A stretch of 38,216 nucleotides of DNA, taken from positions 1 through 38,216 of the forward strand of contig JAGCNO010000146.1 in NCBI GenBank assembly GCA_017645905.1, written 5' to 3'. The position numbers and the translations under genes were made by a program. Within the stretch, counting starts at the first letter, position 1. Each line of letters begins with the position of its first letter. This DNA comes from Prevotella sp. GTDB taxonomy: Bacteria > Bacteroidota > Bacteroidia > Bacteroidales > Bacteroidaceae. Below the pieces are notes generated by a model. That model was given only the letters and a program-made list of their open reading frames with translations, was not told the origin of the DNA and did not search any database. Shown here piece after piece: positions 3,441-26,209 of this stretch.

Positions 3441-3460
3441 TTTCTGCCCCCTCGGAGAAT

Positions 3461-3570
3461 AAGCCGTTCTTTCTATGAGAAAAAGCCGTTCTTTCGATGG
3501 GAATAAGCCGTTCTTTCGATGGGAATAAGCCGTTCTTTCGATGGGAAAAAGCCGTTCTTTCTCCGAGCCC
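3461..3570 (-). repeat. 22-bp tandem repeat array, five units
   Basis: Units start at 3461, 3483, 3505, 3527 and 3549, an exact 22-bp period. Plus-strand core is AAGCCGTTCTTTC, so the minus strand reads GAAAGAACGGCTT. The array is bracketed by short inverted CTCGGAG (3451-3457) and CTCCGAG (3561-3567). The same unit appears in the opposite orientation at 20603-20756 and in degenerate form at 13395-13480. There are no unique spacers, so it is not a CRISPR. Confidence 0.9.
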
Positions 3571-20234: not shown

Positions 20235-20648
20235 ATGAAACAACAGACACTGACCAAAGGCGAGATGCAGGTGATGAACATCCTGTGGGACATGCAGCGA
20301 GGCGCTTGCGTGGCCGACATTCAAGCACAGTACCCGGAACCGCAGCCGGCCTACACGACGGTGGCCACGTTCCTGAAAATCCTGGAGCAGAAGGGATTTG
20401 TGGAAAGACGGAAGAGCGGAACGGGCAAGCTGATGGTCTATTCACCGCTGATGACCCGCGAACGATACCGCCGGCTGGTGATGGACGACGTGAAACGGAC
20501 GTTCTTCGGCGGCTCCGTGGCCTCGCTCGTCTCGTTCTTTGCAGAGGAGGACGAGCTGACGCAGGAGGACATCGAGGAAATACGTTGTATACTGCAGAAA
20601 AGGAAAGAACGGTTTATTCAAATCGAAAGAACGGCTTTTTCGGTTTGA
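20235..20648 (+). CDS. BlaI/MecI/CopY-family transcriptional repressor
   Basis: 137 residues. A winged helix starts LTKGEMQVMNILWDMQRGAC, with the recognition region QPAYTTVATFLKILEQKGFV and the wing RRKSGTGKLMVYSPLM. The C-terminal dimerisation helices (SVASLVSFFAEEDELTQEDI) include the region cleaved by the partner protease in this family. Such repressors bind a dyad and leave it when BlaR1/MecR1 senses a ligand, classically a beta-lactam. The dyad at 20169-20200 fits autoregulation. The last 15 or so residues (KERFIQIERTAFSV) are encoded by the 22-bp repeat array, so the native C-terminus has been replaced or extended. The blaR-like gene follows 76 bp later. Confidence 0.93.
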   Translation: MKQQTLTKGEMQVMNILWDMQRGACVADIQAQYPEPQPAYTTVATFLKILEQKGFVERRKSGTGKLMVYSPLMTRERYRRLVMDDVKRTFFGGSVASLVSFFAEEDELTQEDIEEIRCILQKRKERFIQIERTAFSV

Positions 20649-20756
20649 AAGAACGGCTTATTCTCATGGAAAGAACGGCTTATTCTCATGGAAAGCGCTC
20701 GGCGACGAAGGAGACGCTTGTGTAATGAAATGGAGCAAGAACGGCTTATTGAATAT
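20603..20756 (+). repeat. 22-bp tandem array spanning the blaI-blaR junction
   Basis: Clear units start at 20603, 20625, 20647 and 20669 (core GAAAGAACGG). The 22-bp phase continues through degraded units at 20691 and 20713 to another recognisable unit at 20735 (GCAAGAACGGCTTATT). It supplies the end of the blaI-like frame, the intergenic gap and the first codons after the ATG at 20725. Confidence 0.9.
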
Positions 20757-22725
20757 GGACATGTTGACAGACCTGATATATTACGACTTGAAGGTGGCGG
20801 CGCTGATAGCCGTGTTCTACCTCTTTTATATGTTGCTGCTGGCCCGCGAGACCACGCACACGCTCAACCGCCTCGTGCTGCTCACCGGCATCGGGCTTTC
20901 CGCCATCTTGCCGCTGACCATTATCACCTTTCACCGCACGGTGGTGGTGGAAAGCGGTCTGCGGCCTGTGGCGGAAGACAGTGCCGTAGGCAATGCAGCT
21001 GCGATGCCCGCCATCGAGACCTTGGGGTGGGACTTCGACTGGACGGTTCCGCTGGCTGCCGTGCTGCTTATAGGCACCATCGTACGACTGTCGTATGTAG
21101 CACGCAGTTACAGAAAACTGAAAAGGCTCATGCGCACCGGCGAACGACACGCCCTTCCCTCGGGAACGCACGTCTGCGTGGTCGATGCACCCATTGCTCC
21201 GTTCTCGTGGATGCACACGGTGGTGCTGCCGCGTGCCGACTATCCCGAGGGGCACGGCGAGGCTCCTGTCCTTGCTCACGAAGAGGCGCATGTGCGCCAT
21301 CGTCATAGCTACGACGTAGTGGTCGTAGAATTGCTCACGGCTCTGCAATGGTTCAATCCCGTGGTGTGGTTCCTGCGTCAGGAACTGCGTGTCGTCCACG
21401 AGTATGAGGCCGACGCATCCGTCCTCTCACGCGGCTTTGACGAAAGCCAGTACATCCACCTGCTGATGCAGAAAGCGACGGGCATTCAGGCCTGTGCCCT
21501 GGCCAACGGCATCCGCACCCACAAAACGAAAAAAAGAATCCTTATGATGCTCAAACCGAAATCAAAACGCACGGCATGGCTCAAAGCCCTCTACGTCGTG
21601 CCGATAGTGCTCGTCTCGCTCGCTATGACGGCCAAGACCGTCGTCGACTACGAGACCACAGAAGAGAACAACGCCGTCTCCATATTCCATGAAAACACCA
21701 ACGGGCGAGGCGAAAGCTACCAAATACGCCATACACCCAGCGTGAAGTTCTACAACAACGGCAAGGAGGAGGCTATCGGCGACCGCCCTATAGCCCTCGA
21801 AGTGAAGAAGACCACCATGCAGCTTGACGGGGTAAAGTTCGACGAGCGTTCGCTGCCCACCCTGCCCGTCTCTGCCCTACACGAAATCCATCTCGACGAG
21901 ACCAGCCCTGACCATTTCGTCTGTAGGCTCGTGTCAGCGAAGGTAGGGGCAGGCCCCGTGCCAGCCCGCAATTACAGCCCAAAGATGAGCGACACGGAGT
22001 TTGCCCTCTACGTGAAGCAGCAACAGGATGCAGGCATAGATGAAAAAGAACTCAATCAGATGATGCTGAATGAGGGTAGCGGTATCAGCCGCGCCCACAT
22101 ACTTCACATTATCCGGGCGTATGGCAGCAATAAGAACAAGTTCTTCGTCGTTGACGGCAAGGAGGTCTCACGCGAGGATTACATCCAATTGCAGCCGGAA
22201 AATATCGCTTCAGTAACGGTGATGGATGTCGGCCCGGCCAAGAAAACATTCGGAGAGAAGGGTCGCTATGGAGCCACTATCATAGAGACGAAACAGGCGG
22301 CCTCCGACACTCATCAACAAGACGACCCAGTGTTTGATGTCTGCGAGCAGATGCCCAGCTTTCCCGGCGGCGAAGGGAAGCTGATGGAGTTCATCGCTCG
22401 AAACATCAAGTATCCTGAAGCGGCAACCAAAAGCGGGGTGCAAGGCCGTGTGATGGTGCAGTTCATCGTCGAGAAAGACGGCAGTCTGACGAACGCCAAG
22501 GTTTTGGAAAATCCCAAGAAGTCAGCTGTCAATATGGTGGTCGTCACGGCCTATATGCCTGATAAGCAGCGCCAGGATGCCGAGGCCCACAACGCCGGCG
22601 TGCAGGCACTCCGCGACGAGGCTCTCCGTGTCATCAACGCCATGCCCCGATGGACACCCGGCAAGCAGAAGGGCAAGCCCGTCCGAAGCAAGTTCGTCCT
22701 GCCCGTCACCTACCGACTCAACTAA
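20725..22725 (+). CDS. BlaR1/MecR1-type membrane metalloprotease with TonB-like C-terminus
   Basis: 666 residues from the ATG at 20725; ATGs at 20755 and 20761 are alternatives, as the first ten residues are repeat-derived. An M56 membrane peptidase region has TM segments (LKVAALIAVFYLFYMLLLAR and others), the zinc motif H185-E-E-A-H189, and HEYEADASVL supplying the next ligand. After a final TM (LYVVPIVLVSLAMTA) comes a periplasmic region with a plug-like motif (KGRYGATIIETKQ) and a TonB C-terminal domain (MPSFPGGEGKLMEFIARNIK, ending KFVLPVTYRLN). It lacks a penicillin-binding sensor domain, so the signal is probably not a beta-lactam. It is expected to cleave the repressor encoded upstream. 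About 30 residues (VVVTAYMPDKQRQDAEAHNA and onward) interrupt the TonB domain. Confidence 0.9.
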   Translation: MKWSKNGLLNMDMLTDLIYYDLKVAALIAVFYLFYMLLLARETTHTLNRLVLLTGIGLSAILPLTIITFHRTVVVESGLRPVAEDSAVGNAAAMPAIETLGWDFDWTVPLAAVLLIGTIVRLSYVARSYRKLKRLMRTGERHALPSGTHVCVVDAPIAPFSWMHTVVLPRADYPEGHGEAPVLAHEEAHVRHRHSYDVVVVELLTALQWFNPVVWFLRQELRVVHEYEADASVLSRGFDESQYIHLLMQKATGIQACALANGIRTHKTKKRILMMLKPKSKRTAWLKALYVVPIVLVSLAMTAKTVVDYETTEENNAVSIFHENTNGRGESYQIRHTPSVKFYNNGKEEAIGDRPIALEVKKTTMQLDGVKFDERSLPTLPVSALHEIHLDETSPDHFVCRLVSAKVGAGPVPARNYSPKMSDTEFALYVKQQQDAGIDEKELNQMMLNEGSGISRAHILHIIRAYGSNKNKFFVVDGKEVSREDYIQLQPENIASVTVMDVGPAKKTFGEKGRYGATIIETKQAASDTHQQDDPVFDVCEQMPSFPGGEGKLMEFIARNIKYPEAATKSGVQGRVMVQFIVEKDGSLTNAKVLENPKKSAVNMVVVTAYMPDKQRQDAEAHNAGVQALRDEALRVINAMPRWTPGKQKGKPVRSKFVLPVTYRLN

Positions 22726-22739
22726 ACACACGCTCAATA

Positions 22740-22826
22740 GCGTCGATGAAACCGCGATTTTTTATAAAGTTAGTAAATAATAAGTACCCGGGACAATGCT
22801 GGAGGCCACTGCGAAGTGCCCTCCAG
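22740..22826 (+). repeat. 87-bp direct repeat, copy 1 (contains a hairpin)
   Basis: It starts GCGTCGATGAAACCGCGATT and ends with a strong hairpin, CTGGAGGCCACT-GCGA-AGTGCCCTCCAG (22799-22826), followed by AGTTATTT. A second copy of the same length lies at 24596-24682. The hairpin probably terminates the blaR-like transcript. Confidence 0.9.
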
Positions 22827-22852
22827 AGTTATTTATCAAATAAAGCGAAGAT

Positions 22853-22918
22853 TGCAAACAAAATGCAAAGTGGAAACGGCGGATTTCCGACTTATTCTTA
22901 TTACTTTTGCATGCAAAA
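22853..22918 (+). promoter_or_regulatory. promoter and TGCAAA boxes of the membrane HTH gene
   Basis: TGCAAA boxes start at 22853 and 22864, 11 bp apart. A -7 element TACTTTTG (22902-22909) lies 38 bp after the second box start. A perfect 14-bp palindrome TTTTGCATGCAAAA (22905-22918) covers the -7 element and likely start site. There is no good -33 TTTG, which suits an activator-dependent promoter. Confidence 0.65.
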
Positions 22919-22927
22919 ACGAAGACG

Positions 22928-23947
22928 ATGAAATATTTCCTGACGATATTAACCACGTGCCTCTTGCTGGGATGCAGCTCAAGCGACAGCCATGACAAGC
23001 AGTATCTCCTCCAAGGGGCATGGATATTACGACAGGTGGTCTACCCCTACGGACACACCGATACGTTCTCTGAGCAGGAGGGTGCCCCGCTCCGCTTGTA
23101 CGATGGCGACAGTGTGATATACACCTGTCTGGTGGCCAAGACAGAGACGGGACTGATTGTGAGGCATAGCATGAAAAATCGTGTCACGCTGATTGAGAAG
23201 GGTAACGGCGAGTATGTCTATCTGGAAGACGACGACCCGCGACCGCTGACGGTTGCCAACGACACGACCATCGTCATTCAGCGCAACGGTTCCCTCTCTA
23301 CCTGGCATCGTGCTGACGACATAGCGAAGGAGTGGGGCGAGGAAATACGTGACATCGTCACCGCCGACTTGCAGCGACCCGACGCTGACGACACGCAGAA
23401 CTATATGCTTTCGGCCAAGGAGCGTAGCCAGGCCAACGTCATTCATTGGCTGTTTCTTTCGACCGTCGGCGGCATTATCCTGCTGCTGCTCATAGCCCGC
23501 ATTGCTGTTCAGAACCGAAAAGCCAAACGCCGCCTACAACTGCAACTGAAGCAGATTCAAGAGATTCAAGAGGAGCGTCCGCAGTCGGTGAGACAAGCCA
23601 TTGAGTCGGTGGAATCGTCCTTTTATGCGTCTGACGATTACCAAATGCTGCAACGCCGCATAGCCACGGGTCAGCTGTTGAAGGACGATGACTGGCACGA
23701 CATAGAGGCTCAGCTCAGGAAGGTTTATCCCGGCTTCGGCAGTCAGCTGCGCGGCCTTTATACGATGTCGGAACTGGAATACCAGGTGTGCCTGCTCATT
23801 AAGCTCCGCATCGCCCCAAAGGACATAGCCACCATCCTGGCCCGCGACATGAGCACCATCAGCACCGTTCGCAGCCGACTATATAAAAAGGTGTTCGGGC
23901 GGAAGGGCGGTGCCCGAGACTGGGATGAATTCATCCTGTCAATGTAA
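22928..23947 (+). CDS. membrane-spanning HTH transcriptional regulator
   Basis: 339 residues from the ATG at 22928; the longer frame with a TTG at 22907 is rejected because it begins inside the -7 element. An N-terminal signal with a lipobox-like LLLGC (Cys16) leads to a periplasmic domain of about 150 residues, one TM segment (WLFLSTVGGIILLLLIARIA, about 175-195), a charged coiled coil, and a C-terminal LuxR-like HTH (MSELEYQVCLLIKLRIAPKD, STISTVRSRLYKKVFG). This layout resembles Bacteroidales one-component regulators that sense outside the cytoplasm and bind DNA at the membrane. The boxes upstream of this gene and the next suggest autoregulation. No TPR sensor is present; the periplasmic fold is not recognised. 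Confidence 0.82.
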   Translation: MKYFLTILTTCLLLGCSSSDSHDKQYLLQGAWILRQVVYPYGHTDTFSEQEGAPLRLYDGDSVIYTCLVAKTETGLIVRHSMKNRVTLIEKGNGEYVYLEDDDPRPLTVANDTTIVIQRNGSLSTWHRADDIAKEWGEEIRDIVTADLQRPDADDTQNYMLSAKERSQANVIHWLFLSTVGGIILLLLIARIAVQNRKAKRRLQLQLKQIQEIQEERPQSVRQAIESVESSFYASDDYQMLQRRIATGQLLKDDDWHDIEAQLRKVYPGFGSQLRGLYTMSELEYQVCLLIKLRIAPKDIATILARDMSTISTVRSRLYKKVFGRKGGARDWDEFILSM

Positions 23948-23968: not shown

Positions 23969-24047
23969 TGCAAATAAATTGCAAACACCATGCAAAGTAA
24001 ATGCAAACCCGTTTCCTTGGCTGGTTGGCCGAAAGCCCATACCTTTG
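23969..24047 (+). promoter_or_regulatory. four helically phased TGCAAA boxes and promoter
   Basis: TGCAAA starts at 23969, 23980, 23991 and 24002, exactly 11 bp apart. Eight bp further is CTTG (24016-24019), then 20 nt and TACCTTTG (24040-24047) followed by C. The distance from last box to -7 (38 bp) equals that of the HTH gene promoter. Confidence 0.75.
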
Positions 24048-24079
24048 CAGCGTCATTAATCCCTAAAACAAAAAGTCTT

Positions 24080-24574
24080 ATGAAAAAAGTAATGTTAGTA
24101 ATGGCACTGGCACTGACAGGTGCCATGCAAGTAAGCGCACAAAATGTGAAAATCGACGACAAAGAGCTCGTCGGAGTGTGGTACATGGAGTCTATGCAGT
24201 GGGAGGGCGAGAAGAAAACTGTCTGCGGCAAAGCCACCGGCTACACACAGTTCAAGTTTTACGGCCCCGACGGCGAATACGCTTGTGCAGAGCTCGCCCT
24301 TACCAAGGAGGGCAAAGTGGTGGTCATGCCCCATGAGTATGGTACCTACACGTTCAAAGACGGATGGTACTCAGAAATGGGGCGAGAGAAAATCAAGGAT
24401 GCCATAGTCTGGGTAGATAAGACCACGACAAAAGGCACCTGGCAGAAGCGTCACGACATCTGGAAGAAAATCAACCTGCCCGACAAGGTCGTGAAATACA
24501 TCGTCGACTGCTGCAAGAAGAAGGAGACGCCTGCCGAGATACAACAATCCATCAAGCAAAACCTGTTCAAATAA
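24080..24574 (+). CDS. small secreted protein, probably lipocalin-like
   Basis: 164 residues from the ATG at 24080, with a clear signal peptide (MKKVMLVMALALTGAMQVSA, then Q). The mature domain begins with LVGVWYMESMQWEGEKK and continues with alternating strands (YTQFKFYGPDGEYACAEL, VVMPHEYGTYTFKDGWYSEM). This resembles the small DUF4488/lipocalin-like proteins of Bacteroidales, but I cannot confirm the family. A helical tail (NLPDKVVKYIVDCCKKKETP) follows. The promoter carries four phased TGCAAA boxes, so it is probably controlled by the membrane regulator encoded directly upstream, and might be its ligand-binding or feedback partner (inference). A terminator hairpin in the 87-bp repeat follows 22 nt after the stop codon. 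Confidence 0.75.
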   Translation: MKKVMLVMALALTGAMQVSAQNVKIDDKELVGVWYMESMQWEGEKKTVCGKATGYTQFKFYGPDGEYACAELALTKEGKVVVMPHEYGTYTFKDGWYSEMGREKIKDAIVWVDKTTTKGTWQKRHDIWKKINLPDKVVKYIVDCCKKKETPAEIQQSIKQNLFK

Positions 24575-24595
24575 CATCACACTGCACAAGTCAGA

Positions 24596-24682
24596 GCGTC
24601 GATGAAACCGCGATTTATTATAGTTAGTAAATAACTGTAGTACCCGGGACAATGCTGGAGGCCACTGCGAAGTGCCCTCCAG
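24596..24682 (+). repeat. 87-bp direct repeat, copy 2 (acts as terminator)
   Basis: Same length and ends as 22740-22826. The first 20 and last 40 bases are essentially identical; only the central A/T stretch differs. The terminal hairpin (24655-24682) is followed by CGTTTTTT, a good intrinsic terminator for the small secreted protein gene. It stops 6 bp before the end of the convergent EnvC-like gene. Confidence 0.9.
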
Positions 24683-24688
24683 CGTTTT

Positions 24689-26209
24689 TTATCGCCGCAG
24701 CCAAAGGCGTGGATTGAGTAGCTCCGTCCAGTTGCGGAGCTGGAACTGCATGATGGCGTTGGGGCCGAGGCTTCCGAGAATCTGACTGGTGGAAACCTTC
24801 TGGCCGGCCTTGACGCTGACGGCGGCGATGTCGCTATAGACGGAGATGAATCGTCCGTGGCGCACCATGACGACGTAGGCGGAGCCGGTATTGAAAATCT
24901 TGCTTACCTCGCCGTCGAAGACACAGCGAGCCTTGGCGCCGGGCTGACCCTTGAGGTAGATGCCCTTGCTGGCGAGATGAACACCTCGGGTGCCGTCGAC
25001 GACGTTATCGCCAAAGCCGCGCACCATCTGATAGGCTCCGGTGATGGGCATGGGCAGACGGCCCTTGTTGCTGGCAAAGCTGCCGGTGAGGTGGGCATCG
25101 GGGTCGGCAGCGACGTAACGCTCTGGAGCAGTAGTGGCGGAATTAGACGAGCTCGATTCCCTACCAGTTGCAGTACGGGCCATCTCCTTCGTCTCCTTGC
25201 GCACTTGCTTCTCGATGGCTTTGTCCTGTTTTTTCTCCTGCTTCTCCTGTTTCTTCTGTTCCTTCTCTCTTTCACGGGCAGCCTGTCGTTCACGCTCCTG
25301 ACGCTCACGTTCCAGCCGAGCCTGCTCCTCCTTGCGCTTGCGCTCGGCCTCGAGGCGTGCCTGTTCGCGGGCTATCTCCTCGGCGATGATGCGGTCTATC
25401 TGCGCATTAATGGCGGCCTCCTCCTTCTGCTGCTGCTCGATGAGGGCGGTGACGGTGCGCTGCTGCTTCTGCAGCTCCTTGGCCATCTGCTGCTTCTGGT
25501 CTTGCTGGCGTACGAGGGTCTGGCGCTCCTGCTCCTCACGGGCGAGCATAGCTTTGCGGGCATCAAGGATCTGGGTTATCTCCTCGCTCTTCTGATTCAC
25601 CTGAGCCTGCTTCTGCTTCACAGCCTCGCCCTGGGCACGCTGGTAGGTGGAGTATTCGTTCATGAAGCGCGTGCGGCGGTACATCTGGTTGATGTTCTTT
25701 GCCGAGAGAATGAACATCATGCGCGACTGCATCTTGCGGTTGCGGTGCATGTAGCGAACGGAGCTGGCATAACGCGCCTGGCGGTCGCGCAGCTCGGCCT
25801 CCAGCTTCTCCTTCTCCTTGTTGAGCTGCACAATCTGCTGCTCCAGGGAGTCAAGGCTCACGCGGATGGTGTCGATGACGCGCTTCTGCTCGTCAATCTC
25901 GGTGCCGAGGATGAAAGCGTCCTCCAGCTGCTTCTTCACCTTCTGCTCCAGCTCGGCCTTCTGCCGCTTGTTGGCGGCAATGTTCTTCTTCAGTTGCTGC
26001 TGCTGGGCCTGAAGCTGCTGCTTCTGGGTAGGCTTAGTGGGTTTCTTTTTGGTAGTGGTAGTAGTGGATTTCTTTTGCGTGGCAGTAGTGGACTTCCTTT
26101 GTGTTGCTGTGGTGGTCTGGCGGCGTGACGAACGTCTCGTCTGCGGTTTCTGGGCCACAGACGAGAGGACGATGCCGAGCATCACTATCAGCAAAAAGAA
26201 TTTCCTCAT
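24689..26209 (-). CDS. EnvC-like murein hydrolase activator (coiled coil plus degenerate LytM/M23)
   Basis: 506 residues: a signal peptide (to about 19), a Thr/Lys/Gln-rich low-complexity linker (20-65), a long coiled coil (about 60-330, very Glu/Lys/Gln/Arg-rich), and a C-terminal LytM/M23 domain (GRLPMPITGAYQMVRGFGDN to the end). The M23 zinc ligands are missing: where active enzymes have H-x-G-I-D there is SKGIYL, and the HxH motif position reads VYSDI. This matches EnvC, which does not cut peptidoglycan but activates amidases at the division septum. It is the last gene of the prfB-dut-TPR-DUF4292 block and starts 24 bp after the DUF4292 gene. Confidence 0.88.
   Translation of the reverse strand: MRKFFLLIVMLGIVLSSVAQKPQTRRSSRRQTTTATQRKSTTATQKKSTTTTTKKKPTKPTQKQQLQAQQQQLKKNIAANKRQKAELEQKVKKQLEDAFILGTEIDEQKRVIDTIRVSLDSLEQQIVQLNKEKEKLEAELRDRQARYASSVRYMHRNRKMQSRMMFILSAKNINQMYRRTRFMNEYSTYQRAQGEAVKQKQAQVNQKSEEITQILDARKAMLAREEQERQTLVRQQDQKQQMAKELQKQQRTVTALIEQQQKEEAAINAQIDRIIAEEIAREQARLEAERKRKEEQARLERERQERERQAAREREKEQKKQEKQEKKQDKAIEKQVRKETKEMARTATGRESSSSNSATTAPERYVAADPDAHLTGSFASNKGRLPMPITGAYQMVRGFGDNVVDGTRGVHLASKGIYLKGQPGAKARCVFDGEVSKIFNTGSAYVVMVRHGRFISVYSDIAAVSVKAGQKVSTSQILGSLGPNAIMQFQLRNWTELLNPRLWLRR

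Follow-up and report, generated by a model that had tools for sequence, protein, structure and literature searches.

The stretch of DNA analysed here (the window) comprises 38,216 nucleotides of contig JAGCNO010000146.1 in the Prevotella sp. assembly GCA_017645905.1 and carries a two-gene cassette, in which a gene for a putative membrane helix-turn-helix (HTH) regulator is followed by a gene for a small secreted protein, both being preceded by arrays of the hexamer TGCAAA (Table 1). The ATG at 22928, and not the mechanically called TTG at 22907, is taken as the start of the HTH gene because orthologues align there. Its stop codon at 23947 is separated from the start of the small gene at 24080 by 132 nt, which hold a separate conserved promoter.

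Table 1. Features of the cassette (positions in the window)
Feature	Position	Strand	Basis or remark
Two TGCAAA boxes, 11 bp apart	22853..22869	+	proposed autoregulation operator of the HTH gene
TACTTTTG, -7 element of the HTH-gene promoter	22902..22909	+	32 bp past the last box
Membrane HTH regulator, 339 amino acids	22928..23947	+	alignment, model, hydropathy
Sensor domain of the regulator (residues 30-128)	23015..23311	+	probably homologous to the small protein
HTH region of the regulator (residues 282-323)	23771..23896	+	many invariant residues
Four TGCAAA boxes in 11-bp steps, proposed operator of the small-protein gene	23969..24007	+	sequence, conservation
-33-like CTTG	24016..24019	+	[CT]TTG here in 67/78 small-gene and 19/80 HTH promoters
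TACCTTTG, -7 element of the small-protein promoter	24040..24047	+	matches TANNTTTGY; last box 32 bp before
Small secreted protein, 164 amino acids	24080..24574	+	signal-peptide-like N-terminus; proposed target

The four boxes before the small-protein gene occupy 23969-23974, 23980-23985, 23991-23996 and 24002-24007 of the window sequence, and the last of them is followed by 8 nt (24008-24015), the CTTG, a further 20 nt and TACCTTTG; the Bacteroides -7 consensus is given as TANNTTTGY in a passage of PMC12632263. The letters, coordinates and distances reported for this promoter in the original prediction are exact. A second array, with boxes starting at 22853 and 22864, had not been noticed there, and the distance from the last box to the -7 element is the same in both promoters. 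By itself the TGCAAA hexamer shows no clear enrichment in the window (28 against 22.3 expected, with at least 28 in 13 of 100 shuffles), but pairs of it at 11 bp number four against 0.017 expected under a first-order model of the window. A search of the organism's own genome (181 contigs totalling 3.4 Mb, 87.5% complete), which the original prediction had proposed as a check, found nine such pairs, four of them inside the window, and none in the reversed control. With the additional requirement of a -7 element at a gap of 32 bp, two perfect sites were found, which are the promoters of the small gene and of the HTH gene. A wide regulon was considered and rejected, as the same genome has no site with one mismatch at this gap and one with two; with up to three mismatches there were ten places, against two in the reversed control. 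Slippage was also ruled out as the origin of the four-box array, because Tandem Repeats Finder did not list it and the three 5-bp spacers between its boxes are all different.

The conservation of the arrays was followed with an alignment of 20 HTH homologues, those of the window and of 19 array-bearing loci in genomes of the genus, which seeded the searches. Relatives of the HTH protein were encoded at 204 places, of which the best 80, mostly from rumen and gut Prevotella and Bacteroidales assemblies, were kept. The HTH gene is succeeded by a small-gene match in the same orientation in 78 of these 80 loci, and in 76 no more than 260 bp away; the contigs of L117 and L120 stop shortly beyond the HTH gene. 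A pair of boxes with at most one mismatch, 11 bp apart and 31-33 bp before TAnnTTTG, stands before 77 of the 80 HTH genes (gap of 32 bp in 48, 33 in 27 and 31 in 2) and before 76 of the 78 small genes with a placeable start (32 in 74 and 33 in 2). No other spacing between 8 and 14 bp gave more than three matches in these promoters, and shuffled promoters averaged 0.01 and 0.00. Absence of the boxes from orthologous promoters had been named in advance as what would speak against an operator; they are present in nearly all of them. Within the proximal pair TGCAAA is nearly constant, to which the selection of pairs with at most one mismatch contributes. The spacers are A-rich and partly conserved, most strongly at the base before the second box in the target promoters and at the C after the first box in the HTH promoters, so that the true recognition unit is probably longer than six bases. 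Third and fourth boxes with at most one mismatch occur in 35 and 54 of 75 small-gene promoters, against 9 and 4 of 77 HTH promoters, with an off-register rate of about 1%, and six boxes were found once, in the small-gene promoter of L116. Because additional boxes are frequent at the target and rare at the HTH gene, two boxes form the core, and the target promoter often carries more.

The distribution of the pattern points to the protein that might read it. Among 150 genomes of the genus it was found in 30 (46 matches, against one in the reversed control); all 21 genomes that encode a full-length HTH homologue (E below 1e-70) have it, in comparison with 9 of the 129 without one (Fisher p 6e-19). 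Divergent HTH homologues without a lipobox, 33-34% identical, are encoded in G049 and G120 (loci L200 and L201), where a different target, thioredoxin-like in G049, is preceded by an array with a gap of 32 whose distal box has one mismatch. Remnants of the small gene that lie away from HTH genes in G032 and G034 have no such array. The co-occurrence across genomes, the divergent homologues and the array-free remnants together link the array with the HTH protein and not with the small gene. Of 198 genomes sampled across the order, six match, including the organism's own; four of the others have one site each, and G260, from another family, has two, 1.1 kb apart and identical to both cassette promoters of locus L148. 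The neighbouring membrane HTH protein, proposed in the original prediction as the natural candidate, is thus the best candidate reader, as judged from its presence in array-bearing genomes, the boxes in its own promoter and the divergent homologues. The four-box array is very probably a landing strip of this adjoining membrane-anchored regulator, because the same words stand at the same spacing before both genes in nearly all relatives, and because comparable strips written in other letters accompany some related regulators.

The regulator is predicted to consist of a lipobox with Cys16, a lipocalin-like sensor (residues ~30-128), a membrane-like segment (171-194, the hydropathy maximum) within a long helix (163-215), and a C-terminal HTH domain (~282-323). 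Cys16 is invariant in the 20 aligned homologues and conserved in at least 90% of 68, a strict lipobox expression was matched by 64 of 79, and a membrane-like 19-mer is present in 79 of 79 relatives. The protein is predicted to be a lipoprotein with a periplasmic sensor. The HTH segment alone, considered as a possible LuxR/GerE-type HTH, had no Pfam match, fold searches were filled with matches to the sensor domain and barely covered the HTH part, and the profile of the regulator found no solved relatives by sequence.

The small protein is predicted to form a lipocalin-like barrel with two C-terminal helices, and none of its 76 examined relatives has a membrane-like 19-mer after residue 30. The predicted barrels of the sensor and of the small protein both match solved lipocalin-like proteins. 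Sequence relationships of the small protein are faint: Lipocalin_4 was matched (E up to 0.1) by five of 64 members, the best at E 0.0017 and below the gathering cut-off, the NCBIfam model TIGR03066 gave E 3.9e-5 and 23.7 bits against a cut-off of 93.25, and a search for solved relatives returned seven weak matches, the best with E 0.081.

It is likely that the array serves as the operator of the membrane HTH regulator encoded upstream, which would switch on its own gene and that of the small protein. A lipid anchor and a single membrane helix would fix the regulator in the inner membrane, and a ligand or the state of the envelope, perceived by its lipocalin-like periplasmic domain, would activate it. 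From the phasing of the boxes we infer that its protomers would bind TGCAAA co-operatively in head-to-tail order, with each helical turn taking one protomer and all of them on the same DNA face; the bound array would stop 8 bp upstream of the -33 element and would be placed to help or recruit RNA polymerase. In this way the regulator might induce its own gene, usually through two boxes, and the gene of the small lipocalin-like protein through two to four, once six. As the small protein resembles the sensor domain, it would probably handle the same ligand, as a scavenger, a carrier or a damper.

Several observations weigh against this reading. The seeds of the searches came from array-bearing loci, and the 150-genome set overlaps the set behind the 204 places. 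A recognisable pair is missing from three of the 80 HTH promoters (L115, L134 and L146) and from one of the 78 small-gene promoters (L142), and that of L124 has TGCGAA instead; since a -33 element is recognisable in so few of the HTH promoters (Table 1), the position upstream of -33 is well supported for the target promoter only. Nine array-bearing genomes lack a full-length HTH homologue. Two of these (G018 and G025) have tetratricopeptide-repeat (TPR)-type HTH paralogues beside the array, with TGCAAA pairs in their own and in neighbouring promoters, and in the paralogues' own promoters the gap is 45 bp instead of 32. The arrays of the remaining seven (G024, G126, G027, G073, G029, G046 and G042), with gaps of 30, 33 or 34 and in some cases within reading frames, may be due to chance. 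Of the two divergent HTH genes, that of G120 lacks TGCAAA in the 300 bp before it, and that of G049 is preceded by two pairs with no TAnnTTTG after them. Forty of 60 more distant paralogous loci, described below, contain no exact array. As for the proteins, no Pfam or NCBIfam model passes its cut-off on the regulator, the same is true of the small protein, for which no Pfam family appears even at E 10, and the homology of the small protein with the sensor, although probable, is moderately supported.

With the operator and the HTH protein unchanged, the regulation might instead be repression, or activation of one gene combined with repression of the regulator's own. The two kinds of promoter do differ in ways that would suit such an arrangement: two boxes are usual at the HTH gene and up to four occur at the target, the gap ranges from 31 to 33 bp at HTH genes and is 32 in 74 of 76 target promoters, and the -33 element is recognisable far more often in the latter. 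However, about 32 bp separate the boxes from the -7 element and, in the targets, 8 bp separate them from -33; a position upstream of -33, rather than over the -7 element or the start site, is the usual one of activators, and we consider a repressing or mixed role unlikely. That some other chromosomal regulator binds the array, and that the HTH gene is simply part of the regulated cassette, might be suggested by the array-bearing genomes without a full-length homologue. This appears very unlikely, as the arrays track the HTH gene in 21 of 21 genomes, accompany divergent homologues and TPR-type paralogues with unrelated targets, and have only two perfect sites in the organism's own genome.

Readings that dispense with a specific protein fare worse. 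The AAA runs recurring every 11 bp upstream of the promoter, in the company of A-rich spacers, might act as phased A-tracts that bend the DNA, or as an UP-like element; yet TGC is as constant as AAA, a comparison favoured by the choice of arrays with at most one mismatch, and arrays of paralogues such as TGCGTAC, TGTACAT and TGTAGAC contain no A-tracts, which leaves this explanation with a slight probability. The original prediction had cautioned that TGCAAA is the complement of part of the -7 consensus. The caution is fair, as TTTGCA is indeed present in the -7 region (24044-24049) and the single hexamer is not rare, but it explains neither the 11-bp phasing nor the fixed 32-bp distance. An origin by chance, or as a by-product of the -7 region, is practically negligible in view of the excess of phased pairs in the window, and is refuted by the orthologous promoters, which keep the pairs while shuffled ones do not.

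Among known systems, ToxR/ToxS and VtrA/VtrC, described in passages of PMC9214523 and PMC10269533 as membrane regulators paired with a lipocalin-like periplasmic protein, are by analogy the closest working counterparts of the window pair, which also appears to have an adjoining gene for a lipocalin-like periplasmic partner. As we read it, the window pair works like the ToxR-type systems, yet it is not a member of them, because the domain order is reversed, the genes do not overlap and the partner has no apparent membrane anchor. ToxR and VtrA of Vibrio and enteric bacteria have an N-terminal cytoplasmic HTH, then a membrane helix and a C-terminal periplasmic domain, whereas the window regulator has its signal, lipobox and sensor at the N-terminus and the HTH at the C-terminus, and bears a lipocalin-like barrel of its own. 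Their partners are encoded by overlapping or abutting, cotranscribed genes, in contrast to the spaced genes with their own promoters in the window, and the small protein has a signal peptide with no membrane-like stretch beyond it. The periplasmic domains of these co-component systems form obligate heterodimers. The ToxR site, given as TNAAA-N5-TNAAA in a passage of PMC8517210, repeats at 10 bp instead of 11. One-component transmembrane transcription regulators (TTRs) are reported in a passage of PMC10269533 to be enriched in Bacteroidota, and the window regulator resembles them in that DNA-binding, membrane and extracytoplasmic parts are predicted to share one chain. A word search of the main text of that paper found no LuxR, GerE or lipoprotein, and the order lipobox, lipocalin, membrane helix and HTH was not seen in passages of it.

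Within the Bacteroidales, the BT3442/DUF6377-type TPR-HTH proteins have a C-terminal DNA-binding region related to that of the window regulator, and TPRs where the latter has its lipocalin-like sensor. According to a passage of PMC2954219, BT_3442 is a TPR protein whose gene is clustered with MACPF genes. The window regulator scored 13.3 bits with the model of this family (NF053779, cut-off 940), its best stretch being residues 249-322; the TPR-type paralogue of locus L160, which has TGCAAA arrays beside it, matched BT3442_fam with E 3.6e-17, below the cut-off. A similar geometry is known from the pho box read by PhoB, in which direct repeats of 11 bp, each a 7-bp unit with a 4-bp AT-rich spacer, are arranged head to tail and replace the -35 element. 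The window array is likewise composed of a 7-bp unit and a 4-bp AT-rich spacer, head to tail and upstream of the promoter. However, PhoB belongs to a different protein family and is not membrane-tethered, and the window array lies upstream of -33 instead of replacing -35. Searches of an open-licence library found neither a paper on this operator nor one on the Bacteroidales regulator family.

Whether the geometry extends to paralogues was approached by scanning 60 loci (L204-L223 and L239-L278) for recurrences of any hexamer at 9-12 bp that lie 30-34 bp ahead of TAnnTTTG. Twenty loci contained 21 exact arrays, with a spacing of 11 or 10 bp in 17 (8 at 11, 9 at 10, 2 at 12 and 2 at 9), and 20 of the 21 shared the orientation of the HTH gene: 7 beyond its stop codon (19-106 bp), 12 upstream (13-997 bp) and one inside the called open reading frame. 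Their letters include TGCGTAC, TGTACAT, TGTAGAC, TGTGAA, TGTGTAA and TGTAAT, and most start with TG. Shuffled loci gave 0.05-0.3 arrays per set and spacing (for spacings 10-12; 9 was not shuffled), and the real loci gave 1, 2 and 1 arrays at spacings 7, 8 and 13. A first set of 30 loci, which includes the TGCAAA loci that prompted the idea, had 29 overlapping matches at spacing 11 against 0-5 at the others from 8 to 14; a second set of 40 more distant loci had 2 arrays at 11, 5 at 10 and 2 at 9. The independent cases are fewer, because several loci are mutually orthologous. Given this, the array-free loci and the prevalence of 10 bp in the distant set, the paralogue-wide geometry is a lead and not a law. 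We suggest, with less than even confidence, that the Bacteroidales membrane HTH family has a common geometry (short direct repeats, mostly TG-starting, ~10-11 bp apart and ~32 bp before the -7 element), paralogue-specific letters (TGCAAAC and TGCGAAG in addition to those listed above) and private wiring, and that in the lipocalin branch the target is a secreted relative of the sensor, which would provide trans-membrane feedback with a ligand shared or competed for.

The letters of the boxes may differ between closely related regulators. The complete genome of Prevotella communis E15-14 has two cassettes (L124 and L147), one with TGCAAA boxes and the other (L124) with TGCGAA. Among 68 recognition helices, S307 is found in that of L124 alone, and so is M314, which makes this pair of cassettes a possible natural specificity switch. 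A simple residue-to-letter code was ruled out, because in an alignment by eye Ser also occupies the first of these positions in the L160 regulator, and L138 is the sole canonical relative with A314, and both keep TGCAAA-type boxes. Across the genus TGCGAA arrays were found in 5 of 398 genomes, with one site each (G097, G089, G498, G529 and G547). In G097 the site is a canonical HTH gene's promoter (L110), in G089 it adjoins an HTH paralogue (L237), and the 4-kb contig that bears the G498 site has no HTH gene by tblastn of the 1.7-kb locus or in its list of open reading frames. In L237 (3005-3124) four TGCGAA boxes form two 11-bp pairs just downstream of an assembly-split TPR-like HTH gene.

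A membrane HTH paralogue of ~169 amino acids without a sensor is encoded in the organism's own genome (L162, contig 124, 2907-3413) and in L163-L165 and L189-L196; its neighbours in L162-L165 are presumably NfeD-like and SPFH-like genes. Several of its relatives have a palindrome of TGCAAA-type boxes, one of which lies 32 bp before the -7 element. A TGCAAAC box at this distance was present in 12 of 19 scanned loci, five places being present twice, which corresponds to 9 of 14 distinct genomes; the own-genome copy has no such box.

The cassette is flanked by two copies of a sequence with a terminator-like hairpin (22739-22837 and 24595-24693), 92% identical over 101 columns, as though it had entered at, or travelled with, a terminator that was duplicated. 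Genes for a BlaI-like repressor and a BlaR1-like M56 peptidase with a TonB C-terminal domain lie immediately before the HTH gene (20235-22725), and their relatives are near the cassette in 9 and 16 of the 80 loci, respectively. Tandem arrays of a similar 22-bp unit are present in opposite orientation at 3457-3561 and 20602-20695, the second overlapping the end of the BlaI-like gene. An assignment of function from neighbouring genes was not retained, as the flanks vary and the commonest other cluster occurs in 14 of 80 loci, some of them incomplete; nor was carriage by a mobile element, as megablast found no plasmid match and the HTH protein no phage match. In G034 and G127 (L072 and L199) another gene, which we take to be Crp-like, is fused to or lies beside pieces of the small gene or sensor domain, and these pieces suggest recombination around the cassette.

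If the proposed operator is correct, a family of Bacteroidales membrane regulators would acquire a site on DNA, a gene to act on and a logic open to testing, and would become a natural series showing how one HTH scaffold changes the DNA letters it reads. Should the paralogue geometry also hold, the window array would be one member of a family-wide operator architecture with letters specific to each paralogue, in which each regulator is wired privately to itself or to an adjoining gene. The cassette itself, with a regulator, a secreted lipocalin-like protein and a private operator, is compact and occurs in many gut and rumen species in varied gene surroundings. Once its signal is known, it could become a ready-made envelope sensor for the genetics of gut bacteria.
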